From Ornithinibacter aureus (lineage in GTDB: Bacteria; Actinomycetota; Actinomycetes; Actinomycetales; Dermatophilaceae): DNA of 64,000 bases. Numbering within the stretch: the first letter of the stretch is position 1; each line of letters opens with the position of its first letter. The position numbers were made by a program, and so were the translations under genes. This document shows, one piece after another, positions 47,249-62,105 of the stretch. Location of the stretch: NCBI RefSeq assembly GCF_009858245.1, contig NZ_VMSB01000001.1:2795623-2859622 (forward strand). The letters are read 5' to 3'. Under the pieces are notes generated by a model. The model was not told the DNA's origin. It saw only the letters and a list, made by a program, of their open reading frames with translations, and did not search any database.

Positions 47249-47746
47249 TCACGGTACGGGGCGCAGGAACACATCCTCGAACTGCTTCTGGGCGCGTTTC
47301 GTACGTATGGCGCGGATCGTTCGCTGGCGTTCGGTCAGAGTCGGGTTTTCGAGGTTGAAGTAGCCAGTGTCGAAACGGTTCTCGCCGGTCGGGAAGCTCT
47401 GCTGGCGAAGGCGATCGACGAGCGTGGTGCAATAGGCAAGGAGCGTGCGAAAGCTGTCCGGATCGCGTTCGGCGTCACTCGCGTACAGTTCGCGAACAGC
47501 CGTCTCCTCATCCTCGTAATGGGTTCGCGCGGTGTCATCCAGCTCCCAGAAGAGGCGCAACGCGAGTGCACGATCACATCGCGGATGCGAGACCACTGCG
47601 AGCGGAACTGCGAACCCGTCGTCCCAGTTGTACGCGCTCATCAGTTCCCACAGCGCTCCCTCGTCGGGAAGGGCAGCGACCAGACTCGGCAATTGAGCGT
47701 GTTCAGTGCAATCGTGCTGGATGATCGCGGCGACGTCGTCACGCAT
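47249..47746 (-). CDS. DUF4274-like protein
   Basis: 165 residues from ATG 47746, with GAAGGGA upstream. The core LPDEGALWELMSAYNWDDGF then PLAVVSHPRCDRALALRLFW fits DUF4274, a family of unknown function found in accessory regions. Acidic throughout. It follows the membrane protein at 47806 on the same strand by 59 bp. Confidence 0.7.
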   Translation of the reverse strand: MRDDVAAIIQHDCTEHAQLPSLVAALPDEGALWELMSAYNWDDGFAVPLAVVSHPRCDRALALRLFWELDDTARTHYEDEETAVRELYASDAERDPDSFRTLLAYCTTLVDRLRQQSFPTGENRFDTGYFNLENPTLTERQRTIRAIRTKRAQKQFEDVFLRPVP

Positions 47747-47805
47747 GATGATCCCTTCATGGTTGGGCGATACCTCTCCCACGGAGGTCGTATCCCTGTA
47801 GTTCC

Positions 47806-48549
47806 TCAGGCGAGTGCATCGAAGGCGACAATCGCGAAGAGCACGGCCGGGCCCATAGCGAGGAGAAGGATCCACCGGACGCGACGCCTTCCCAGTCGTG
47901 TGTGCGGGAGCCGTGCGGTCGCGTACCAGGCGGCGAGCAGCGCCAGGGCGAAGGGAAGATAGAGCGCCCACAGTCCGACATCGATCTGCCCTCGCCCGTT
48001 CCGGCGTGTCGGCATCTCCACGTTCGCACGCTCCGGAGCTATGAGCTGCACGACGACGGCGCCGAGCAGCAGCAGCCCGGCGATTCCGTACATGACCACA
48101 CGTAACCGACGAGATGATTCCGGCGCGGCGTTCTCGGGGGCTGTCCGGTGCTCAGTCACGGGCACGCCGTATCTGAGGTTGTCGAGCTCCTCCTGACGAG
48201 CACGTTCTTCTTCACCGGAGCGGATGATGTTGCGTAGCTCATCCAGGGTGATCCGCGAGGCGTCACCCGTTACCTCCCCGTCGTCGGGTTCGGCGAACGT
48301 ATCGCAGAGGATGTAGCCGAAGCCTTGGGCATCCCAGCCCGACAGTAGGTCCAAGATGCCTGCCGCGCCGCTGTCGTACCAGTCGTTGGTGAACATCTCG
48401 ACATCGAGCACCGGAGCGCCCACGGCGATCAGCACCCGCAGTTCGCTGAACCCCAGCCCCGTCGCATCCTTCAAGCCGGTCAGCACACGTGCGGGTGCGG
48501 TAGCGCCGTCGATGAATACATGCAGCCGCGGTGAGGAGAGATCATTCAC
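47806..48549 (-). CDS. Hypothetical protein with two C-terminal membrane helices
   Basis: 247 residues from GTG 48549 (VNDLSSPRLHVFIDG). A soluble N-terminal domain of about 100 residues (LKDATGLGFSELRVLIAVGA), a helical linker, then helices near 150-172, 192-212 and 222-245. No family recognised. Possibly paired with the DUF4274 gene. Confidence 0.5.
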   Translation of the reverse strand: MNDLSSPRLHVFIDGATAPARVLTGLKDATGLGFSELRVLIAVGAPVLDVEMFTNDWYDSGAAGILDLLSGWDAQGFGYILCDTFAEPDDGEVTGDASRITLDELRNIIRSGEEERARQEELDNLRYGVPVTEHRTAPENAAPESSRRLRVVMYGIAGLLLLGAVVVQLIAPERANVEMPTRRNGRGQIDVGLWALYLPFALALLAAWYATARLPHTRLGRRRVRWILLLAMGPAVLFAIVAFDALA

Positions 48550-50480: not shown

Positions 50481-50565
50481 TCGGCGATTCATACTCGCTG
50501 ACGGCGGTTGCACAGTCACCGACCCCCCGCAGCGGAAGGTGTCAAGCCGTTTGAGACATCTGCGG

Positions 50566-51531
50566 TCAGGCGCTTTGTATGAGGGCCTCCTGTGAGGGCT
50601 GGTTGATCCACGCGGCGGTGGGCAGTTTCGGTGGCGCGGGGCGTCGATGGCCGAAGCGGTCGGGGTGCGCGGCGTAGGCAGCGTCGAGGGTGGCCTGCCG
50701 CTGGGCGCGGACCTGTGTGGCGGTGCCGTAGTGGACCGAGGCGGGGGTGTGCAGCCCGATCCCGGCGTGGCGGTGCTCGTGGTTGTAGTAGCCGAAGAAC
50801 CTCTCCCCGAACGCTCTCGCGTCGGCCAGGGACCCGAACTCGCCGGGGAAGGCCGGGGCGTACTTCAACGTCTTGAACTGCGCCTCGCTGTAGGGGTTGT
50901 CGTTGGACACGTGCGGGCGGGAGTGGGAGCGGGTCACGCTCAGGTCGACGAGCAGCTGCGCGACGGGTTTGGAGGTCATCGAGGTGCCCCGGTCGGCGTG
51001 GACCACGTCGGGGATCCCGTGCACACCCATCGCCTCCTCGAGCATGGCCGTGGCGATCTGAGCGTCCTCGCGGGCGGCGACGGTCCACGCCACGACGTAC
51101 CGGGAGAAGATGTCGAGCACGACGTACAGGTCGTAGTACACCCCGCGCTGCGGCCCGCGCAGCTTGGTGATGTCCCAGGACCACACCTGCCCGGGCCTGG
51201 TCGCCACCAGCTCCGGTTTGACCCGGGGCGGGTGGGTGGCCTGGGCGCGGCGCTCACCCGCGGCGTCGTTCGCGCGCAGGATCCGGTGCATCGTGGACCG
51301 CGAGCACAGGTAGGTACCCTCGTCCAACAGCGTCGCCCACGCCTGGGCCACCGACTTGTCGGCGAACCGGTCGCTGGTCAACACCGTCAGCACCTGCGCC
51401 CGTTCGGCGTCGGTCAGCGCGTTGGGTGGGGCCGGTCGCGGCGCCGAATCCCTCACCGGGCGAGGAGCTTTGGCCCGGTAGTGGCTACCCCGCGCCCGGC
51501 CCAGCAGCGCACACGCGGCCTTGACGCCAGT
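50566..51531 (-). pseudogene. IS3-family OrfB (element B copy 1), 5' end cut by IS256
   Basis: Retains the rve core: WSWDITKLRGPQRGVYYDLY, VHADRGTSMTSKPV and SNDNPYSEAQFKTLKY with the DDE residues. The first about 10 codons (MINPLVDVLAV in copy 2) are on the other side of the IS256 insertion near 53000-53035, so the gene is broken. An internal ATG at 51456 could give a shorter protein. Confidence 0.85.
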
Positions 51532-51539
51532 ATGCCCCG

Positions 51540-52999
51540 GGGGGTATCAGATGGTCTGTGTAAGCGAGGGGGTCTCCAACCCTGAAGGAGTTTGACTGTG
51601 AGCATGACCAAGGAAGCGAAGACGGACGCTGTCGAGCCTGAGGCTCGCCGGTTGCGTCGGGAGTTGTTCACCGACGAGATGCTGGACCAGTTGATGGCTG
51701 CGACGGGTGAGCGTGGCCTGTCGCTGACCGGTGAGGGCGGGTTCTTGCCGGAGATGATCAAGGCCGTTCTCGAGCGGGGATGGAGGCCGAGCTGACCGGT
51801 CACCTGGGTTACGACAAGGGCGACCCGGCCGGGAAGGGGTCGGGCAACTCGCGTAACGGGTCCACCCCGAAGACGGTGGGCACCGAGGTTGGTGACATCG
51901 CGTTGGACCAGCCTCGGGACCGGAACTCCACGTTCGCGTCGGCGCTGGTGCCCAAGGGCGCCCGCCGCCTGGGCGGGCTGGAGGACATGATCATCTCCCT
52001 GTACGCCGGCGGGATGACGATCCGTGACATCCAGCACCACCTGGCGTCCACGCTGGGCACCGAGCTCTCGCACGAGACGATCAGCAAGGTCACCGACGCG
52101 GTCGCCGAGGAGGTCAAGGCGTGGCAGACCCGCCCGTTGGAGGCGTTCTACCCGGTGATCTATCTCGACGCGCTCGTGGTCAAGATCCGCGACGGGGCGC
52201 ACGTGGCCAACCGGGCCGCGCACATCGCCGTCGGGGTCGACATGGACGGGGTCAAGCACGTCCTGGGCATCTGGGTCCAAGCCGCCGAGGGCGCGAAGTT
52301 CTGGGCGTCGGTGTGCGCCGAGCTGGCCAACCGCGGCGTCAAGGACGTGCTGATCGTGTGCTGCGACGGGCTGACCGGCTTCCCCGAGGCCATCGAGGGC
52401 ACCTGGTCGCAGGCGATGGTCCAAACGTGTGTGGTGCACCTGATCCGGGCCTCGATGCGGTTCGTGTCCTACAGCGACCGCAAGGCCGTCGCCGCGATGC
52501 TGCGCCCGATCTACACCGCCGCCAACGAGGACGCCGCGCTGATCGCCCTGGCCACGTTCGCCGACTCCAACCTGGGCAAGAAGTACCCCGCCGCCGTCGC
52601 GTCGTGGGAGAACGCCTGGGACCGGTTCACCCCGTTCCTGGCGTTCGGGCCAGCCCTGCGCAAGGTCATCTACACGACCAACAGCATCGAGAGCTTGAAC
52701 TACCAGCTGCGCAAGATCATCAAGAACCGCGGCCACTTCCCCAACGACGCCGCCGCGATCAAGCTGCTCTGGTTGGCTATCCGCACCATCGAGGACAAAC
52801 GCGCCCGGCAACGCGCCAAAGAAGCCGGCCTACCCAAGGGCAGCCCCCGAAAAGCCCCCGGCAAACTCGTCGAAGGCTCGCTCATCCAAGGCTGGAAAGC
52901 CGCCCTGGGCGAGCTCGCCCTCGTCTACCCCGACCGCATCAACACCTACCTCTAACCCCATGTGACCCACCTCACTTACACAGAGAACTTGACACCCTC
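51540..52999 (+). mobile_element. IS256-family element inserted in IS3-B copy 1
   Basis: 1460 bp with inverted ends sharing TCTGTGTAAG-GAGG (left from 51540, right to 52999) and an exact 8-bp target duplication ATGCCCCG (51532-51539 and 53000-53007), the size usual for IS256. Comparison with the intact copy 2 of IS3-B confirms the empty site. Confidence 0.92.
51592..52955 (+). pseudogene. IS256-family (mutator type) transposase, frameshifted
   Basis: The first 67 codons (to KAVLERGWRPS) and a second frame from ATG 51780 (MEAELTGHLGYDKGDPAGKG) would join as VLERGMEAELTGHLGY if the GGGG run near 51776 had one more G. The second frame alone, 391 residues, contains the catalytic core: DALVVKIRDG, VCCDGLTGFPEAI and YTTNSIESLNYQLRK. 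Either a real deletion, or frame restoration by slippage, or a sequence error. Confidence 0.85.
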
Positions 53000-53031
53000 A
53001 TGCCCCGCCAGCTCGTCCACGAGCGGGCTGA

Positions 53032-53436
53032 TCACCGCCGCGACCGCTTGGTCGGCTCCGCGCTCTCGGAGAGCGTCTCCAAGAGCGCGTGTGCTTTTCC
53101 CATCAGGTCCAGCGCCGCCCTCGTGCGTGCCAGCTCGGCCTCGGCGCGCTCCGCCCGGGCTGTGAGCTCCTCAATCTCCCGGTCGCGGCGGTCCCGCGAG
53201 ACCGGGCCCAGCCCAGCCCGGGCACCGGCGTCAGCCGCTCGGCGCCACTCCACGATGTGCGAGGAGTACAGCCCTTCCCGGCGCAGGACCGCACCCCGCC
53301 CACCATGCTCAGCGGCGTCGTACTCGGCCAGGATCCGCGCCTTGTACTCCGCCGTGAACACCCGCCGCTTGGGCCGGTCACCTCGAGGTCCCATGGCCCC
53401 ATCATCAACGGCCCCATCGGCCAAAGTCATCGTCAT
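53032..53436 (-). CDS. IS3-family transposase OrfA (element B copy 1)
   Basis: 134 residues. Helix-turn-helix (FTAEYKARILAEYDAAEHGG) and a coiled coil (REIEELTARAERAEAELART). Differs from copy 2 at only a few residues. Separated from its orfB by the IS256 element. Confidence 0.88.
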   Translation of the reverse strand: MTMTLADGAVDDGAMGPRGDRPKRRVFTAEYKARILAEYDAAEHGGRGAVLRREGLYSSHIVEWRRAADAGARAGLGPVSRDRRDREIEELTARAERAEAELARTRAALDLMGKAHALLETLSESAEPTKRSRR

Positions 53437-53513
53437 CAGCTACTACTCGCTTCTCACCCCGTGCAAGGGAAGGAACTCAGTCGTTGTGTCTCACCACAGC
53501 CTGACGCACAGGG

Positions 53514-53705
53514 ATACGCCAGCGGGGGCTCGATGAGTGCCATCTCGCCGAAGCGGTCGAGCTGTACGACGAGGGCCTTACGCTAATGGAAGTCGGGCTG
53601 CGGTACGGGGTCAGCCAGCAAGCTGTCCGACGCGCGCTGGCCGCAGAGGGCGTCACGATTCGACCGGGTGGTCGGCGCGCAAAAGCCGTCGCATCGAACG
53701 TCTGA
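53514..53705 (+). pseudogene. Helix-turn-helix gene fragment beside IS3-B copy 1
   Basis: Open from the IS end: HLAEAVELYDEGLTLMEVGL then RYGVSQQAVRRALAAEGV and RPGGRRAK to a stop. It looks like the C-terminal HTH of a resolvase-type or transposon-associated protein. The 5' part is not found on the other side of the IS, so the original gene is truncated. Confidence 0.6.
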
Positions 53706-53760
53706 GCTGCGAGTCCGGCGGTGTCATCCGTTATCCGTGGGATTCGGAGCGAATCGGACA

Positions 53761-56307
53761 TCACTCGATCGGGATCTCGATCGGGGTGTGGAGGAGGTTC
53801 GCCACTGGTGTGTACAGGTCGACGTCGGTGGCGTCAGTCTGGAGTGATACGACGAGGGCGTAGCGGATCTTCCGGTCGACGCGTTCGCGGTTCTTGTTGT
53901 TCTTCCACCAGCCGCCGACGGGGTAGACGGCGATCTTTCCGGTGTCGGCGAGTGCTGAACCGTAGGTCTCCCAGATGTCTTGATGCAGTGAGCCGTACAG
54001 GCGTTGGTTGGCGCCAACGAGCCACGACACTTGTCCGCTTGCGGGGCGCCCGCCGGCTTCCTCGGTGCGGGCTTCACGGTTCACTCGCTGAATGAAATGG
54101 GCCTCAGATTCAAGGGGGTCTTGTAGCTCGAACCGGAGTCCGTGTGATGCGTACTTGTACCGCTGCCGCCATCCTCGTCGGGAAGCCGTCGGCTCGATGA
54201 AGTAGGAGAGGGTGACGCGCAGAGTCACGGAAGCGGAGCCCAGGTCTTGCAGTACTTCGCGCGGCCAAGGAAGGTCGTGTAGTCGGAACGACGGGACCTT
54301 GAACTCATCGCCCTCGAAAGGGGTGAACTCGTCCTGTACGACCAGGGTTACGGACCGATCGGAGGAGAACAACACGCGTTCCTCGGTCGGGACGCCCCAG
54401 CCGTATCGGCGTAGCAGCATCTGTTTGGCTTGAAGTCCGCTCTGCCCCGCACGATCGATTTCGTCGCGCATGATGGGTGTCCACTGCGCGGAGTGGACAA
54501 GGAGTGCTCGGATCGTCTCGGGCCAGTACTCGGGATAGGTGGCCATGACGAGGGCTGCGAGCCGGGAGCCTTGCGCGGTCGCGGCGCTGGTTGCGTTGGC
54601 CGATGCCAGAGCCTGGTCGTTTGTGTGCCCGGTGGTTCGCAGGGACAGCGCCGGGTGATTCGGCTCGAACATGGAGGCGGTGTCATGGAGGACGTTGCCG
54701 CCTTCCATGACGATGTCGGGCTTGATCGGCCAGCGCCTGTTCCCGAACGGCAGAGACGTGCGACTGTGGGGCGAGAGGTCGCCCTTCCGCGCGACAGGGG
54801 TCCAGCCTGCGAAGGCCGGATCGGTCGGGACCGCGTCGAGGTCGGTGTAGGCGCCGACGGTGAGTGCGTTCCAGGCTTGGCCGGGATCTCGAACCGGAGA
54901 GGTGTCGGATTCGGCGAGGTGGTCGGCGACGTAGCCGGTTACGTTTCCGGCGGACACGATCAGGAGTCTTGCTGCTTCGCTGTCTGGTGGCGCGAGTAGC
55001 CGGAGTTCGTCGCCGTTGCTGACGACGTTGGCGCCGACGGCCAGTGCGTCGACGGTGGCCGACCACAGCGTGGGCTGACCTGGGCTGCCGGGGGTGTCGG
55101 TACTGGTGCTGACCGGCATGCAGAACACCCGGCGCCGTGTCGCTGCGATTTCGGGCAGCGAGACGGCTTGGGCGGTGACGTCTCCGTACGCGCGGGGTTC
55201 GTGCGGCTTCTCGGTCTTGGTCGGAAGGATGCGAACCGACTCCAGTCGGTGTCGCAGCACAACGGAGTCCGATCCGAGCAGGTGGCGGTCGACCGCGGCT
55301 CCCAGCAGCGCGATGCCGGCCATCTTGGTGCCATGTCCGTCTTGATCGAAGCCGCTGACGCCGATCACGGTGTGCAGGTCCTGGGGTGCCAGGGACTGCT
55401 CGATGAGGACGTGAGTTCTCGCTACGCCCGTGTCGAGGTGGCAGACGGCGGGCTGGAGTTCGTCGGCAGGTTCCAGTCGCTTGGCCAGGTCGTCGACGTA
55501 GTCGGCTTGCTCCTCGGCGGTGAGGTCTTCTATGGAGTCGATGAACTCCGGGCGCCGGATTTCGGCCAGCGGCACCGCGGTGAACGGTAGGACTTCAAGC
55601 TGCGCCCACGTCGCCTCGACCCACATGACGTCGCGGTCGACGAGCCGGAGGAGACGCTGCGAGATGGTCAGTCCGGAGGCTTCGGCGAAGCGCCGTAGCA
55701 GATCGGGGCCGTCAGCGTTTGGGCGTAGCCATAGTTCCCACCATGTCGTCGTACCTTCTGGAGGGCGACCCTCGGACTGCCAAAGGTCACCCAGGATGGT
55801 GGCACGGATGCGTGCGATGTTCGCGACGAGTTCGTTGTTGCGAGGTTTGCCTTTCGGTGACTCCTTCGCCAGGTAGTCCTCGAAGAGCTGCAGGAACTTC
55901 GCACGGTAGTCGTCGCTGACCCAGACGGTCGCTCGCTCGGGGATGCCAGAACCCGAGTCCGCGGGGAGAACCGAGAGAAGGAGCCACTTGGGGCGCCTGC
56001 GCTGCGAATCGCGGTGCGAGGTGAGCTGTTGGAGAGTGTCGAGCTTGAGCGGATAGGCGGGGTCAGAGCCCTCCAACGTGATGATGGTGCCCAAGGCACG
56101 TAGCTCGTCGTCTGGGAGTTGTTCTTCACGGGTCTCGTCACCGCTAGAGAACGCGGACTGCAACTCGTTCAGCCGCCCGCCGCCGTGACCGGCACGGTCT
56201 TCGACCGGACGAATCTTCGGGTCCGGTCCACCCCGTCGGCGAAACTCCTCGTCTGCCGCTCGATCTTCTACCAGAAGGTGACTGAGGTGTTCCTGCCCCT
56301 CAGCCAA
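53761..56307 (-). CDS. ietS: Subtilisin-like S8 serine protease, IetS-type defence component
   Basis: 848 residues if started at TTG 56307, which overlaps the ATPase stop by eight bases and begins MAEGQEHLSHLLVEDRA; GTG 56355 would add 16 residues. After a 280-residue N-terminal domain comes an S8 fold with Asp292 (CHLDTG), His325 (DGHGTKMAG), oxyanion Asn455 (SAGN) and Ser574 (NATSAATAQ), then a C-terminal beta domain. No signal peptide, so cytoplasmic. The partner is the AAA+ ATPase immediately upstream; the pair matches IetAS, known for plasmid stability and anti-phage activity. How it is triggered is unknown. Confidence 0.85.
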   Translation of the reverse strand: MAEGQEHLSHLLVEDRAADEEFRRRGGPDPKIRPVEDRAGHGGGRLNELQSAFSSGDETREEQLPDDELRALGTIITLEGSDPAYPLKLDTLQQLTSHRDSQRRRPKWLLLSVLPADSGSGIPERATVWVSDDYRAKFLQLFEDYLAKESPKGKPRNNELVANIARIRATILGDLWQSEGRPPEGTTTWWELWLRPNADGPDLLRRFAEASGLTISQRLLRLVDRDVMWVEATWAQLEVLPFTAVPLAEIRRPEFIDSIEDLTAEEQADYVDDLAKRLEPADELQPAVCHLDTGVARTHVLIEQSLAPQDLHTVIGVSGFDQDGHGTKMAGIALLGAAVDRHLLGSDSVVLRHRLESVRILPTKTEKPHEPRAYGDVTAQAVSLPEIAATRRRVFCMPVSTSTDTPGSPGQPTLWSATVDALAVGANVVSNGDELRLLAPPDSEAARLLIVSAGNVTGYVADHLAESDTSPVRDPGQAWNALTVGAYTDLDAVPTDPAFAGWTPVARKGDLSPHSRTSLPFGNRRWPIKPDIVMEGGNVLHDTASMFEPNHPALSLRTTGHTNDQALASANATSAATAQGSRLAALVMATYPEYWPETIRALLVHSAQWTPIMRDEIDRAGQSGLQAKQMLLRRYGWGVPTEERVLFSSDRSVTLVVQDEFTPFEGDEFKVPSFRLHDLPWPREVLQDLGSASVTLRVTLSYFIEPTASRRGWRQRYKYASHGLRFELQDPLESEAHFIQRVNREARTEEAGGRPASGQVSWLVGANQRLYGSLHQDIWETYGSALADTGKIAVYPVGGWWKNNKNRERVDRKIRYALVVSLQTDATDVDLYTPVANLLHTPIEIPIE

Positions 56308-57268
56308 GGCTCGCCGCCTGCCGCGATTTGAGCGACTGTCGAATGTCGTCGGCACTCACTCGTGTTCCGCCAGCGAGGATGACGCTCTTGGCGGCAGACT
56401 CCGCAGCCCTTACGAGGTCCGCATGGGAGAGCCCTGCCATGTGCTCTGCCAGTGCGGCCCAACGGACGCCCTTGGCGAGAGACCCGAGCCTGCCGCGCAT
56501 CACGGCGGCGGCCTGTTTCGCGTCCGGCAGTGAGTAGTTGAGAACCATGTCGAAACGTCGGAACAGGGCCTTGTCCAGAATCGACCGGTGGTTGGTGGCA
56601 GCGATGACGATGCTCTCGGGAGAACTGTTCTCCAGGAACACCAGGAAGGAGTTCAGGATGCGTCGGGCCTCACCGACGTCGTTTCCTGCTCGGTCGCCAC
56701 CGAGCGCGTCGAACTCATCGAACAGGTACACCCCGCGCTGCGCGCCCACTGCATCGAAGATGACGCGCAGCTTACTGGCGGTCTCGCCCATGAACTTGCT
56801 CAGCAGGCTGTCGAGCCTGATCGTCAGCAAAGGCAGAGAGAGCTCGTGAGCCAGGACTGCCGCGGTCATCGTCTTGCCCGTACCAGGCGGCCCCTCGAAC
56901 AGGAGGCGATGCGCAGGCTCAAAGCCGTGATCCAGAAGCTGCTTGCGTTGGCGCTGTTCGCTGAGGACACGTCGCACCTGCGCGGCCAGCTCATCCGGCA
57001 GGACCAAGTCTTTCAAGCCAACGGCTGGGTGAGAGGCGATAACGAGTTCTGAAAGATCGCCTCGCGGTTGAGCGATTGAGGTGACCTTTTTTGGCCGCTC
57101 GACACGTGAGTGATCAACTGCGGCTTTGAGGTCAGCCGCGAGATGGTGATGCCCCTGCCGAGCCGCCTGAGCGGCAACCTGTAGCGCGACTGAGTAGAAC
57201 GCCTCGTCGTCGCCGCTCCCGTGGCTTCGTACGAGCGCCTTGAAGTGCTCTCCTGATCCGGCCACCAC
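56300..57268 (-). CDS. ietA: AAA+ ATPase, IetA-type defence component
   Basis: 322 residues. A helical N-terminus (about 20-55) precedes one FtsH/Vps4-type AAA module: Walker A GPPGTGKT at 126-133, Walker B YLFDEFD ending near 187, sensor ATNH at 224, arginine finger FRRFD at 236-240, and a C-terminal lid. GTG start with GGGAGG upstream. It overlaps the protease gene and is its probable regulator or unfolding partner. Bracketed by IS copies, so likely acquired. Confidence 0.87.
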   Translation of the reverse strand: MVAGSGEHFKALVRSHGSGDDEAFYSVALQVAAQAARQGHHHLAADLKAAVDHSRVERPKKVTSIAQPRGDLSELVIASHPAVGLKDLVLPDELAAQVRRVLSEQRQRKQLLDHGFEPAHRLLFEGPPGTGKTMTAAVLAHELSLPLLTIRLDSLLSKFMGETASKLRVIFDAVGAQRGVYLFDEFDALGGDRAGNDVGEARRILNSFLVFLENSSPESIVIAATNHRSILDKALFRRFDMVLNYSLPDAKQAAAVMRGRLGSLAKGVRWAALAEHMAGLSHADLVRAAESAAKSVILAGGTRVSADDIRQSLKSRQAASLG

Positions 57269-57447
57269 TCACCTCCCGCCGTACGCTGCGTGTTGTCCCA
57301 AGTCTACGGGCCAGGACCGTCAGAGCATCGCTGATCCCCCGCATGCCGACCACTCGGGTCAGCCAGCAGGCCGCCAAGCGCACTGGCCGGGACTGGCGTC
57401 GTGATTCGGCCGAGTCCACGCCGTGCTCGGGGTCAGCGTGTCCCGCA
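57269..57447. other. 179-bp gap upstream of ietA
   Basis: Must contain the ietA promoter; TAGACT about 40 bp upstream is a possible -10. A short plus-strand piece reading VLGVSVSRIKELAG near 57425-57468 looks like a helix-turn-helix remnant cut by the IS3-C element, but it is too short to name. Confidence 0.35.
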
Positions 57448-58398
57448 TCAAAGAATTGGCAGGATTTCCTTGTTCTGAAAGTTGGGGATGCTCGGGTCGG
57501 CCTGGCCCAGGTGCACCTCCTTGGGCCGGTTCCAGGCGATGGCCTCGTGCGGTCGCAGTTCGTTGTACTCGATGCGGTAGTCCTCGGCGTGCTCGGCGAG
57601 CATGACGGCGTCGTCGATCTCGTCGATGAAGAGCCGCTCATACTTCAGCGTCCCGAACCCACGTTCGCGTGATCCGTTCTGCCCCGGCGACTTCACGCGG
57701 GTGCGGACGTGCGCCAGCTCGGGATGGAGCTCGATGAACGCCTCGAACCGGAACGATCGGAACGGACCGCCGTTGTCGGTGACGATCGTGACCACCGGCA
57801 GCACCTCACCGCTGTGCTCATCGACCGGGCAGTCATCGATCATCGGATGCCCGAAGAGCTCCTCGTACTCGGCCAGCGCGAGCTCGACCGCATCGATCGC
57901 GTCGTGCTGATTCGCTGTCGGCGACACATGGAATCGGCGCTCGTACTTGGACCAGTAGTCCCGGCACCCCGCGATCCGCCACGTCCCACCCGTGGTGGTC
58001 TCGAACTCGCTGAAGTCCAGCTGCCAGACCTGGTTGGCGCCCGTGGGCTCCTTGGCGAACGCGGCCTTGCGACGTTCGGCCAGCTTGCGGCGTTCCCGCT
58101 GATACTCATCGGGCAGGATCAGGCCCTCGTCGCGCAGGATCCGCAGCACGGTCGCCTCGGACACGACATGGTCGTCGTGGCGGACCAACGCCCAGATCTT
58201 GCGATGACCCCACGCCGGATGAGCAGACGCATGCACCAGCACTCGGTCCCGCGCGGCACCGCGGGCCGGCCGCGGCCACGGACCACGCGCAGGAAGGCCA
58301 CGGTCGGCCTTGGCCTGCCACCGCCGCCAGGTCCGTTCCGGGATGTCGAACCTCCTGCACCACCTCGCGGTCGACATCCCAGACTCTTGTCTGATCAC
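57448..58398 (-). CDS. IS3-family transposase OrfB (element C)
   Basis: 316 residues, rve integrase core with NQVWQLDFSEFETTTGGTWR, VTIVTDNGGPFRSF and PGQNGSRERGFGTLKYE (DDE). Its frame begins GTG overlapping the orfA stop (GTGA), with a -1 frameshift read-through to orfA possible. Intact itself, but its orfA is truncated, so the element is probably immobile. Confidence 0.87.
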   Translation of the reverse strand: MIRQESGMSTARWCRRFDIPERTWRRWQAKADRGLPARGPWPRPARGAARDRVLVHASAHPAWGHRKIWALVRHDDHVVSEATVLRILRDEGLILPDEYQRERRKLAERRKAAFAKEPTGANQVWQLDFSEFETTTGGTWRIAGCRDYWSKYERRFHVSPTANQHDAIDAVELALAEYEELFGHPMIDDCPVDEHSGEVLPVVTIVTDNGGPFRSFRFEAFIELHPELAHVRTRVKSPGQNGSRERGFGTLKYERLFIDEIDDAVMLAEHAEDYRIEYNELRPHEAIAWNRPKEVHLGQADPSIPNFQNKEILPIL

Positions 58399-58626
58399 CT
58401 CGAGGTCCTCAAAGGGCCCAACCGGCCCTCGGCGCTCTTCTTCCAGACCCGGATCTCGACCGCCGCCTCACCCAGGGCCTGCGTCAGATCCTCGACCTGC
58501 GCCTCCAGCTGCTCCTCCCGCGTCGACGGGCCGGACCGGCCCGCCGCCAACGCGGTCTTCCCCGCCTCGAGGAAGTCAGCCTTCCACCGCCCGATGGACT
58601 GCTCGCTGACCTTCTCCCGCCGAGCC
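58395..58626 (-). pseudogene. IS3-family OrfA (element C), 5' end lost at IS3-B copy 2
   Basis: Reads RREKVSEQSIGRWKADFLEA, then GPSTREEQLEAQVEDLTQAL and VEIRVWKKSAEGRLGP, the C-terminal two thirds of an IS3-type OrfA. The frame runs straight into the end of IS3-B copy 2; no N-terminus is found beyond that copy, so insertion was followed by a deletion or rearrangement. Confidence 0.8.
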
Positions 58627-58658
58627 GGAAGGTGTCAAGCCGTTTGAGACATCTGCGG

Positions 58659-59660
58659 TCAGGCGCTTTGTATGAGGGCCTCCTGTGAGGGTTGGTTGAT
58701 CCACGCGGCGGTGGGCAGTTTCGGTGGCGCGGGGCGTCGATGGCCGAAGCGGTCGGGGTGGGCGGCGTACGCGGCGTCGAGGGTGGTCTGCCGCTGGGCG
58801 CGGACCTGTGTGGCGGTGCCGTAGTGGACCGAGGCGGGGGTGTGCAGCCCGATCCCGGCGTGGCGGTGCTCGTGGTTGTAGTAGCCGAAGAACCTCTCCC
58901 CGAACGCTCTCGCGTCGGCCAGGGACCCGAACTCGCCGGGGAAGGCCGGGGCGTACTTCAACGTCTTGAACGCGGCCTCGCTGTAGGGGTTGTCGTTGGA
59001 CACGTGCGGGCGGGAGTGCGAGCGGGTCACGCTCAGGTCGACGAGCAGCTGCGCGACGGGTTTGGAGGTCATCGAGGTACCCCGGTCCGCGTGGACCACG
59101 TCGGGGATCCCGTGCACACCCATCGCCTCCTCGAGCATGGCCTTGGCGATCTCGGCGTCTTCGCGGGCGGCGACGGTCCACGCCACGACGTAGCGGGAGA
59201 AGATGTCGATCACGACGTACAGGTCGTAGTACACCCCGCGCTGCGGCCCGCGCAGCTTGGTGATGTCCCAGGACCACACCTGCCCGGGCCGGGTCGCCAC
59301 CAGCTCCGGTTTGACCCGGGGCGGGTGGGTGGCCTGGGCGCGGCGCTCACCCGCGGCGTCGTTCGCGCGCAGGATCCGGTGCATCGTGGACCGCGAGCAC
59401 AGGTAGGTGCCTTCGTCGAGCAGCGTCGCCCACGCCTGGGCCACGGACTTGTCGGCGAACCGGTCGCTGGTCAACACCGTCAGCACCTGCGCCCGTTCGG
59501 CGTCGGTCAGCGCGTTGGGTGGGGCCGGGCGCGGCGCCGAATCCCTCACCGGGCGAGGAGCTTTGGCCCGGTAGTGGCTACCCCGCGCCCGGCCCAGCAG
59601 CGCGCACGCCGTCTTGACGCCGGTGTGCACCGCCAGCACGTCCACGAGCGGGTTGATCAC
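58659..59660 (-). CDS. IS3-family transposase OrfB (element B copy 2)
   Basis: 333 residues, complete: N-terminal helical region MINPLVDVLAVHTGVKTACA, then rve core with DDE in WSWDITKL, HADRGTSM and NPYSEAAFKTLKY. GTG start overlaps the orfA stop by four bases. Confidence 0.93.
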   Translation of the reverse strand: MINPLVDVLAVHTGVKTACALLGRARGSHYRAKAPRPVRDSAPRPAPPNALTDAERAQVLTVLTSDRFADKSVAQAWATLLDEGTYLCSRSTMHRILRANDAAGERRAQATHPPRVKPELVATRPGQVWSWDITKLRGPQRGVYYDLYVVIDIFSRYVVAWTVAAREDAEIAKAMLEEAMGVHGIPDVVHADRGTSMTSKPVAQLLVDLSVTRSHSRPHVSNDNPYSEAAFKTLKYAPAFPGEFGSLADARAFGERFFGYYNHEHRHAGIGLHTPASVHYGTATQVRAQRQTTLDAAYAAHPDRFGHRRPAPPKLPTAAWINQPSQEALIQSA

Positions 59661-60061
59661 CGCCGCGACCGCTTGGTCGGCTCCGCGCCCTCGGAGAGCG
59701 TCTCCAAGAGCGCGTGTGCTTTTCCCACCAGGTCCAGCGCCGCCCTCGTGCGCACCAGCTCGGCCTCGGCCCGCTCGGCCCGGGCCGTGAGCTCCTCAAT
59801 CTCCCGGTCGCGGCGGTCCCGCGAGACCGGGCCCAAACCAGCCCGGGCACCGGCGTCAGCCGCTCGACGCCACTCCACGATGTGCGAGGAGTACAGCCCT
59901 TCCCGGCGCAGGACCGCACCCCGCCCACCGTGCTCGGCCGCGTCGTACTCGGCCAGGATCCGCGCCTTGTACTCCGCCGTGAACACCCGCCGCTTGGGCC
60001 GGTCACCTCGAGGTCCCATGACCCCATCATCAACGGCCCCATCGGCCAAAGTCATCGTCAT
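59657..60061 (-). CDS. IS3-family transposase OrfA (element B copy 2)
   Basis: 134 residues: HTH (RVFTAEYKARILAEYDAAEH) and a coiled coil. Co-translated with orfB. Same protein as at 53032 with a few substitutions. Confidence 0.92.
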   Translation of the reverse strand: MTMTLADGAVDDGVMGPRGDRPKRRVFTAEYKARILAEYDAAEHGGRGAVLRREGLYSSHIVEWRRAADAGARAGLGPVSRDRRDREIEELTARAERAEAELVRTRAALDLVGKAHALLETLSEGAEPTKRSRR

Positions 60062-60138
60062 CAGCTACTACTCGCTTCTCACCCCGTGCAAGGGAAGGAA
60101 CTCAGTCGTCGTGTCTCACCTCAGCCTGACGCACAGGG

Positions 60139-60639: not shown

Positions 60640-60825
60640 GGTGACGGCCGCGATCTTCCGACGTCACCGACTGCAGGACGCTGCTCACCACGTGCGCGAG
60701 CAACCCGACGTTCCCTTGCGGCGGTCGCTGCTCATCTCAGCACACCGACTACGCCCACCTCACCGGCGACTTCCGAAGCGTGCTTGGTTTCACTCCCAGC
60801 GACTATCGCACCGAGTCGTCGTGAG
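60640..60825 (+). pseudogene. AraC-family regulator C-terminal remnant
   Basis: The final frame reads TDYAHLTGDFRSVLGFTPSD then YRTESS to a stop, the last helix-turn-helix of AraC proteins; the preceding LAAVAAHL is in another frame. The rest is absent. Ends inside the 3' end of the arginase-family gene on the other strand. Confidence 0.6.
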
Positions 60826-61807
60826 GCGCGCGAGGGGTGTGCCCACTGCGACTCGAGACACGTCCAGCTCGCCCGACTCCCGCCACAATCATCTGCACAT
60901 AGTCGTCGAGTGCCGTTACGTCGGGGGCATTTCCAGGGTTCACCTCCGTGAGCACGAGACCGGCGAACCGATCGTCAGTGGTGAACGCACGGAGCGCCTC
61001 CACTAGCTCGTCAATGGTGAGCCCCCAAGGTTCGCTGTCCGGGTTCGGCATGTTCGCCAGCGGCATTTGGTAGTGCGCGAGCACGTCGACATCGACATGC
61101 ACGACGAATCGCAGGCCAGCACTCGCGATGGCCTGGATCGCCAGTGCCGGCGCGTCTGGGTCGTCGTGAACGCATCTCGCGGGAATCCGCACGATGCCTA
61201 GTTCGTGGAGCAGAGCCAGTTCCAGGTCACCACTCTCCTCCGGAAGTGCGTCACCGTAGGAGACGATTTGGTCCGGGCGCAGCAGAGGCGGGGAACCTTC
61301 GATCGTGGTCAGCGCCTCGTCGCTTCCGGGGAGCGCGAGCATGTGCGCGACACCCATCGCGTCCACGTTCCCAAACTCGATGAGTCCAGGCGTGTAGAGG
61401 TCCGGACCGCCGTCCACGTACATCAGGGCAACCTCATGCCCTGCACGTCGGAAGCCGGCAACGACGCCCACCGTGACTGTGCAGTCGCCGCCCAGCACGA
61501 GGGGTACCCGGCATGCAGCGAGCACAGATGCTACCGCGGTCGCCGTCTCGTCGGCTACGCGTGCGACCTCCTGGATGTTCTGCCGATCAAGGTGCGCAGG
61601 ATCGGGCCGCCGCCTAAATCCTCGCACGTCGCCGCCGTCGACCACCTCGTCGCCGGCCGCGCGCAGGAGCCGCGCCAGCTCGGCCTCACGGATAGCCGCC
61701 GGCCCTAAGTCCATCCCCGGAGTGTGACCGCCGACACTCGACGGCACGCCCACGAGTGTCCACCTCGTGCCGCCTTCATCCGCGGTTCCGCGCGTCACAC
61801 TGGACAC
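60803..61807 (-). CDS. Arginase/agmatinase-family protein with altered metal ligands
   Basis: 334 residues from GTG 61807 (GGAAGGAG upstream); the longer frame runs into an ABC remnant. Ureohydrolase fold with GGDCTVTVG, MYVDGGPDLYTP and HVDVDVL. Canonical binuclear Mn sites are GGDH, DAHxD and DxD; here His is Cys in the first and the second reads DGGPD. Some arginases have GGDC, but loss of the DAH histidine makes normal arginase activity uncertain. Conserved as a full-length protein. Confidence 0.75.
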   Translation of the reverse strand: MSSVTRGTADEGGTRWTLVGVPSSVGGHTPGMDLGPAAIREAELARLLRAAGDEVVDGGDVRGFRRRPDPAHLDRQNIQEVARVADETATAVASVLAACRVPLVLGGDCTVTVGVVAGFRRAGHEVALMYVDGGPDLYTPGLIEFGNVDAMGVAHMLALPGSDEALTTIEGSPPLLRPDQIVSYGDALPEESGDLELALLHELGIVRIPARCVHDDPDAPALAIQAIASAGLRFVVHVDVDVLAHYQMPLANMPNPDSEPWGLTIDELVEALRAFTTDDRFAGLVLTEVNPGNAPDVTALDDYVQMIVAGVGRAGRVSSRSGHTPRAPHDDSVR

Positions 61808-61849
61808 ATCGACGATCTCCTTCCGGGTCTGAAAGTCCCTGATCAATTC

Positions 61850-62105
61850 GTGTACGAAGTTGCGCCCCGGTGTGGGTGTCGCGTGGGAGAGGTCATGCAC
61901 AGTGCCGGCGAACTCGGGCAACGCCTCGCGTGGGGCGCGTCAGTGTCGTGAGCAGCCGCACCATTGTGGTCTTCCTGCACCGTTGATCCCAAGACGCCCA
62001 GCACCCGACCCTCCTGCAAAGTGACGTCGCCCTCCCTGAGCGCGGCTTCTCTCGCCCCGGGTAAACCTCTGGACAACCCTTCGGCCGGGATCGCTGAGAG
62101 GCCAT
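61850..62105 (-). pseudogene. N-terminal fragment of a DrrA-type ABC transporter ATPase
   Basis: One frame gives GLSRGLPGAREAALREGDVT and EGRVLGVLG; a shifted frame gives CRKTTMVRLLTTLTRPTRGV; the first Walker A Gly residues are lost at the shift. This is the start of a daunorubicin-resistance type ATPase, ending near 61850. Confidence 0.65.

Follow-up and report, generated by a model that had tools for sequence, protein, structure and literature searches.

The closest described relatives of the gene pair considered here are IetAS of pTiC58 and sgiAT of SGI1, in each of which an AAA+ ATPase antitoxin is encoded with an S8 protease toxin on mobile DNA (PMC5006074). The SGI1 protease is reported to be toxic without the ATPase and not toxic with it (PMC5006074). 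A mycoplasma AAA-ATPase/subtilisin toxin-antitoxin pair, TA132/3, has the same two domains and the same gene order, with the ATPase gene first, and the ATPase is required to survive the protease: in the minimal mycoplasma, knockout of the ATPase alone is lethal whereas the double knockout is viable (PMC6755753; also PMC8562856). That pair is chromosomal, and no defence island is mentioned in the passages of those reports cited here. IetAS is reportedly activated by phage replication components (PMC10732053), and its mechanism has been described as unknown (PMC11878078). Here we describe an ietAS pair in the actinobacterium Ornithinibacter aureus, found in a stretch of 64,000 nucleotides (nt) of contig NZ_VMSB01000001.1 (positions 2,795,623 to 2,859,622), referred to below as the window.

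The pair probably functions as a toxin-antitoxin-like abortive-infection system that is induced from a PafBC-type promoter and in which phage replication, or loss of IetA, frees IetS. IetS would be a cytoplasmic subtilase that is toxic once free, and IetA, a Cdc48/PAN-type AAA+ ATPase with a three-helix N-domain, would restrain it. In the actinobacterial clade to which the window copy belongs, ietAS would be transcribed from a DNA-damage promoter of the PafBC type, and the single-stranded DNA of phage replication would increase its expression. Release of IetS, by a phage replication protein or through loss of IetA function, would let it cut essential proteins and thereby stop the infection. 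Within this model we infer the PafBC control, the trigger, the target, the activity of the window copy and the antidote role of phage-borne IetA discussed below. The two genes and their main features are as follows (window coordinates).

56300-57268, minus strand: ietA, AAA+ ATPase of 322 amino acids, GTG start with a further GTG at 57265 (PADLOC, Pfam and motifs)
53761-56307, minus strand: ietS, S8 subtilase of 848 amino acids from a TTG start placed by the 8-nt overlap (PADLOC and Pfam)
56300-56307, minus strand: overlap of the ietA stop and the ietS start, 8 nt, TTGGCTGA
57272-57277, minus strand: ribosome-binding site of ietA, GGGAGG (sequence)
56792-56794, minus strand: codon of the IetA pore-loop aromatic Phe159, in SKFMGET (alignment and sequence)
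55432-55434, minus strand: codon of the IetS catalytic Asp292 (alignment and sequence)
55333-55335, minus strand: codon of the IetS catalytic His325 (alignment and sequence)
54943-54945, minus strand: codon of the IetS oxyanion Asn455 (alignment and sequence)
54586-54588, minus strand: codon of the IetS nucleophile Ser574 (alignment and sequence)

The gene pair is IetAS, an AAA+ ATPase with an S8 subtilase, and this identity is well supported. The initial annotation, made from the sequence alone, had proposed it and suggested a search against defence profiles, in which PADLOC profile PDLC04232 matched IetA over residues 9-317 (profile positions 7-317 of 330; E 3.3e-68) and PDLC04233 matched IetS (profile positions 271-849 of 855; E 9.9e-30), the best stretch of the latter hidden Markov model leaving out the N-terminal part of IetS. 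Pfam assigns IetA to AAA (8e-29) and IetS to Peptidase_S8 (7e-45). Because PADLOC, Pfam and PHROG all give matches, the two open reading frames (ORFs) are not a product of chance. The order and overlap expected of IetAS were also borne out: the ATPase gene lies directly upstream and overlaps the protease gene by 8 nt, an arrangement common to 16 of 21 loci with measurements for both genes. Near-identical copies are among these loci, and for the remaining five alignment starts were used and the overlap is undecided. Since a TTG at 56307 gives this recurring overlap, it is taken as the ietS start, and the listed 864-residue ORF from a GTG at 56355 probably has the wrong start. The narrower NCBIfam anti-phage equivalogs count against the assignment, IetA and IetS scoring 190.4 of 510 bits and 46.3 of 900 bits against IteA and IteS, far under the cut-offs; the pair is therefore placed in the broad IetAS family and outside the narrow IteA/IteS group. 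The setting is one of defence, both proteins matching the PADLOC profiles and relatives of the pair adjoining a CBASS (cyclic oligonucleotide-based antiphage signalling system) operon, not the housekeeping genes that would have spoken against the annotation.

The ATPase features named in the initial annotation are all present in the single AAA+ module of IetA: Walker A (GPPGTGKT), Walker B (LFDEFD), sensor-1 (N226) and the arginine finger (R237/R238) are intact. The catalytic triad of IetS is likewise complete, and D292, H325, S574 and the oxyanion residue N455 (848-residue numbering) do not vary in any of the 48 IetS sequences aligned. The predicted cytoplasmic location of the protease also holds, neither a signal peptide nor a membrane helix being apparent in IetS by Kyte-Doolittle analysis (highest 19-residue mean 1.08; −0.54 over the first 50 windows).

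The AlphaFold2 model of IetS, built from 48 sequences, has a mean predicted local distance difference test score (pLDDT) of 81.7 and a predicted template modelling score of 0.71. Residues 285-822 of the model resemble the subtilase KP-43 including its C-terminal domain (Z 26.0, root-mean-square deviation (rmsd) 2.7, 371 residues aligned), although subtilisins that lack this domain tie with KP-43 in Z; coverage in the VIA-align rows lies mostly within model residues 270-648, so that they barely test the N-terminal region. The C-terminal domain of IetS is modelled as similar to that of KP-43-type subtilases. Searches of solved structures with the single IetS sequence found none, and a profile search gave five weak subtilase matches. 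Subtilisin propeptides have the element order β-α-β-β-α-β. Residues 188-251 of IetS are modelled in this same order, and the top Foldseek match is a pro-form, 3afg (E 4e-19, with an rmsd of 23.8 over the whole alignment). Pfam I9 (Inhibitor I9 propeptide) matched none of eight fragments, and the model, which Pfam does not support, suggests a propeptide-like topology for part of the N-terminal region. Alignment of this region across the family begins at about residue 26 (residue 42 of the 864-residue ORF), and tblastn aligned IetS to Klebsiella plasmid copies from the same residue (26 from the TTG, 42 in the longer ORF). A KP-43-like C-terminal domain and a propeptide-like N-terminal part would be as compatible with autoinhibition or docking as with the sensing role that the initial annotation had considered probable for the two flanking domains.

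The structure of IetA bears on the main rival explanation, that IetA recognises and unfolds phage proteins and threads them into IetS, as ClpX does for ClpP, their degradation being the defence. The intact pore loop of IetA is of the aromatic-hydrophobic-Gly type, which agrees with this explanation and also with the abortive-infection model. In the IetA model (pLDDT 85.6) a low-confidence linker separates a three-helix N-domain from an AAA domain whose nearest structures are PAN, p97 and FtsH; p97 is also nearest by sequence profile. ClpP-type peptidases, however, are inert on their own. The homologous proteases are toxic without their ATPase (PMC5006074, PMC6755753), a difference that counts against ATP-fed proteolysis. 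IetS is also modelled as a subtilisin with a KP-43-like C-terminal domain and not as a closed chamber, and the lone IetA genes of phages, described below, suit an antidote better. We regard this explanation as unlikely.

Evidence for the regulatory part of the abortive-infection model comes from the sequence upstream of ietA. An alignment of 12 ietA upstreams, in all of which GGAGGTG is invariant, revealed a block, TGACGGTS-N8-TAGACT, roughly 30 nt ahead of the start, and in the window the motif is located as follows.

57301-57322, minus strand: PafBC/RecA-NDp-like motif TGACGGTC-N8-TAGACT, 32 nt before the GTG at 57268 (C1:2852923-2852944 in the whole genome)

The PafBC/RecA-NDp consensus is TTGTCRGTG-N8-TANNNT, and the ietA motif appears close to this DNA-damage motif, with the same N8 + TANNNT layout; in the relative L013 the motif half reads CGTCGGTG, near the canonical form. 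PafBC is activated by single-stranded DNA (PMC11804915), and its regulon is reported to include recA, uvrA and uvrC, the promoter being said to reach other actinobacteria (PMC8223512).

The general pattern TGWCRGTS-N8-TANNNT occurs 26 times in the genome of O. aureus and its reversed control not at all. An NCBIfam scan of eight of the 26 downstream genes, within the extent of the loci, gave polA, uvrB, uvrA, uvrC, ligD, clgR (98 bits against a cut-off of 170), a DEDD exonuclease and, weakly, hsdM. Because of the difference from the control and the DNA-repair genes among the eight scanned, the motif appears to mark a genuine regulon in this host. A copy with one mismatch lies 87 nt upstream of recA. 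The motif ends 6-7 nt before the start at uvrA, uvrB, uvrC, polA and ligD, whereas ietA has a 32-nt leader that includes a ribosome-binding site. Two adjacent WYL genes, possible candidates for pafB and pafC, are present in the genome at C1:547.8-549.0 kb. Copies of the motif at C1:998875, 2321024 and 2469644 (L259, L261 and L262) precede an hsdM-like gene and small ORFs that look antitoxin-like by eye.

The ietA form of the motif is present without mismatch in nine of 25 ietA upstreams, with one mismatch in two, with two in three and with at least three in 11; shuffled upstreams reached two mismatches in 0.04% of cases and never fewer. This test is partly circular because the form of the motif came from those loci, and the genome-wide test is more independent. 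For the 11 clade members left after exclusion of near-copies, aligned on the TAG.CT half, the TGACGGTS half is 86% identical per column; the spacer reaches 62%, the upstream flank 56% and the downstream flank 49%. The surroundings of the loci of 18 relatives (298,218 bases) contain the general pattern 12 times and the control once; eight of the matches lie before ietA, three before a CBASS effector and one between the two operons of L014. The CBASS effector starts exactly 6 nt after the motif in L002 (2130-2151), L005 (2130-2151) and L014 (2475-2496), the first two being near-copies of one another. In the genomes of nine relatives there are 9 to 26 matches to the pattern and 0 to 5 to the control. 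We propose, tentatively and at slightly below an even chance, that IetAS of this clade and the neighbouring CBASS are wired into the PafBC single-stranded DNA/DNA-damage regulon, such that phage replication would switch the island on, and that an unpaired IetA has been retained repeatedly by tailed phages as an antidote.

The possibility that the motif is general to CBASS was rejected: among the 13 phospholipase-effector CBASS loci with E below 1e-30 (of 30 fetched) the general form is exact before only one, L276, and it is therefore a trait of one subclade. A second reading of two loci with a shorter flank gave the same result.

Several observations weigh against the inducible abortive-infection model. 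The ietA motif has TGAC where the consensus has TGTC, although ligD and clgR share TGAC and these three are the only matches of that form in the genome, and the W in the general pattern replaced T only after the ietA motif had been seen. Several of the 26 genomic matches precede genes that, by eye, do not resemble DNA repair, and neither of the tandem WYL genes was matched by an NCBIfam name. Four of the nine exact upstreams (the window, L002, L003 and L005) are near-identical copies, and the 11 with at least three mismatches include the Rhodococcus plasmid pairs L018 and L019, as well as L009. The genome of L008 gives the weakest contrast, with nine matches to the pattern and five to the control, and 100 ietA upstreams from viral contigs, a number that includes copies, fit the motif no better than they fit its reversed control. 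Beyond the promoter, sgiAT is reported to cause no post-segregational killing from its own promoter (PMC5006074), so a simple toxin-antitoxin picture is incomplete, and no phage or toxicity assay for the actinobacterial ietAS clade was found in the literature.

The antidote part of the proposal rests on IetA genes in viral contigs. Although a single-protein query found no relative of IetS there, an alignment query found 46 loci. Of 65 distinct IetA sequences, 48 are paired with IetS in the same locus, three are followed by an IetS remnant (L096, L093 and L113), ten are unpaired, lacking IetS despite at least 1000 nt downstream, and four have too little downstream DNA (L099, L109, L124 and L148). 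One of the ten, L144, is not counted as phage: its contig, classed as viral, is probably bacterial, with valS-like and ankyrin-repeat genes and an IetA that lacks the N-domain. In the other nine (L098, L101, L106, L112, L118, L126, L145, L146 and L223) a profile search that recovered 7 of 7 positive controls found no IetS anywhere in the contigs, which are possibly fragments. All but L223 were scanned with PADLOC, and each of these eight matched the IetA profile at E 8e-62 or better.

All nine lone genes are surrounded by phage genes. In L118, IetA lies between terminase and portal genes on one side and head decoration and major head protein genes on the other; a terminase large subunit follows it in L101 and L106, and a head-tail adaptor and neck protein are downstream in L126. 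L112 has RecT as a neighbour and L223 a primase and DNA polymerase before IetA, and the neighbours in L098, L145 and L146 are methyltransferases.

A single old lineage of lone IetA was rejected: in a tree of 82 sequences, in which nine rows are lone (L144 included; L223, a later find, excluded), eight changes are needed, at least five of them forced by well-supported branches. Clustering of the lone genes does not exceed that of shuffled labels (in 158 of 500 shuffles the count was as low), and the placement of L146, joined to another long branch, is unsure. The ratio of non-synonymous to synonymous substitution (ω) is 0.20 (0.145-0.277) for L101 against L093, which is probably paired; between lone genes it is 0.17 (L112-L223) and 0.12 (L101-L112), with synonymous divergence above 2 and near saturation, and three other comparisons were saturated. 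The low values lend weak support to selection on lone IetA. Lone IetA would fit repeated retention of an antitoxin without its toxin, by analogy with the ICP1 antitoxin mimic AdfB, a stand-alone antitoxin gene of a phage directed against the toxin-antitoxin-type defence DarTG (PMC11481870). AdfB, as reported there, was shown by experiment, whereas the evidence on IetA consists of lone genes in phage contigs.

Three side observations concern these contigs. In L096 (5767-7604) IetA is followed, with a 4-nt overlap, by a short ORF with an IetS-like start, and the rest of IetS was not found. A 41.6-kb viral contig has the same IetA region at each of its ends (L101 and L102), in opposite orientations, possibly an assembly artefact. 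In L173 (Enterobacter phage phiT5282H, Peduoviridae) an IetA-like gene annotated as ftsH overlaps a gene of 734 amino acids, possibly a phage-borne pair.

The genome of O. aureus (3.70 Mb, one contig) contains one copy of ietAS. At E ≤ 0.001, 9 of 186 genomes of the family and 15 of 396 genomes sampled from the phylum contain a relative of IetS. Several of these matches are weak or partial, both counts include the host genome, and none of the three same-genus genomes listed has a match. An IetS relative is present in 465 plasmid records, and among the 40 matches listed of these the non-actinobacterial ones are 36-39% identical to the window IetS. This distribution indicates that ietAS is a sporadic, mobile gene pair. 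The surroundings of the window copy are as follows.

53513-57441, no strand: island block containing ietAS, 97.7-99.3% identical in DNA to L002, L003 and L005 (blastn), with insertion-sequence junctions at both ends
50533-53513, minus strand: left insertion sequence with an rve transposase, interrupted at about 51540-52987 by an IS256-like element of the Mutator family; 95.4-97.0% identical to 58626-60138 (self-blast, Pfam)
57448-58398, minus strand: transposase of the right-hand insertion element, rve_3 + HTH_21 (Pfam)
58626-60138, minus strand: second copy of the left insertion sequence, in the same orientation (self-blast)

Two copies of an rve-type element in the same orientation thus flank ietAS together with a third element. 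The block is shared with Agromyces (L002), Microbacterium (L005) and Actinotalea (L003), in all of which the common sequence continues beyond both of its ends. In the window it halts at the insertion sequences, and ietAS here is therefore, as judged from these comparisons, a recently moved fragment of a defence island, about 3.9 kb long and trimmed by insertion sequences. Upstream of ietAS in L002 is a CBASS operon with a phospholipase effector (E 1.9e-112), a cyclase (E 1.4e-170) and an E1-E2 protein (E 4e-292). The cyclase and E1-E2 of the CBASS adjoining ietAS in L014 match likewise, the scan covering these two genes, and in L005, which shares 11,135 bases with L002 at 99.7%, the operon is inferred from that identity. 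An arginase-family gene (60806-61921) and a DUF4274 gene (47252-47971) flank the insertion-sequence region of the window.

Given this mobility, the pair might serve in this clade only to stabilise plasmids and islands and to exclude rivals, and have no true function against phage. The plasmid records and the insertion sequences around the window block agree with such a role, and the SGI1 homologue acts in maintenance, the pTiC58 pair being said to do likewise (PMC5006074). We nevertheless consider it quite unlikely: in L002 and L014 the pair adjoins CBASS operons that carry the same motif, 48 of the 65 distinct IetA in viral contigs are paired with IetS, and IetAS borne on Pf phage is reported to correlate with phage resistance (PMC11878078).

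The trimming also raises the question of whether the window copy is a stranded remnant of a cut island that is no longer expressed or of use to its host. The CBASS side is cut off by the insertion-sequence junctions (53513 and 57441), no IetS was found in the same-genus genomes listed, and a Pseudonocardia plasmid copy of ietAS (L017:12180-19302; IetS 94% identical) is broken by two IS1380 elements. In the window, however, the two ORFs are uninterrupted and have all their catalytic residues, the promoter motif is kept with about 120 nt above it, and the 97.7-99.3% identity to copies elsewhere leaves little time for decay, so that a remnant is highly improbable.

The actinobacterial clade of the window pair differs from IetAS of pTiC58 and from sgiAT in having its own promoter motif. 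A literature search, mostly without full texts, found no published statement of a DNA-damage wiring of ietAS and CBASS or of a lone phage IetA. The PafBC-like promoter suggests how infection could switch the pair on, and its presence before both ietAS and CBASS offers a directly testable trigger route, while the phage-borne lone IetA would provide a ready-made test of the model in which IetA restrains IetS.

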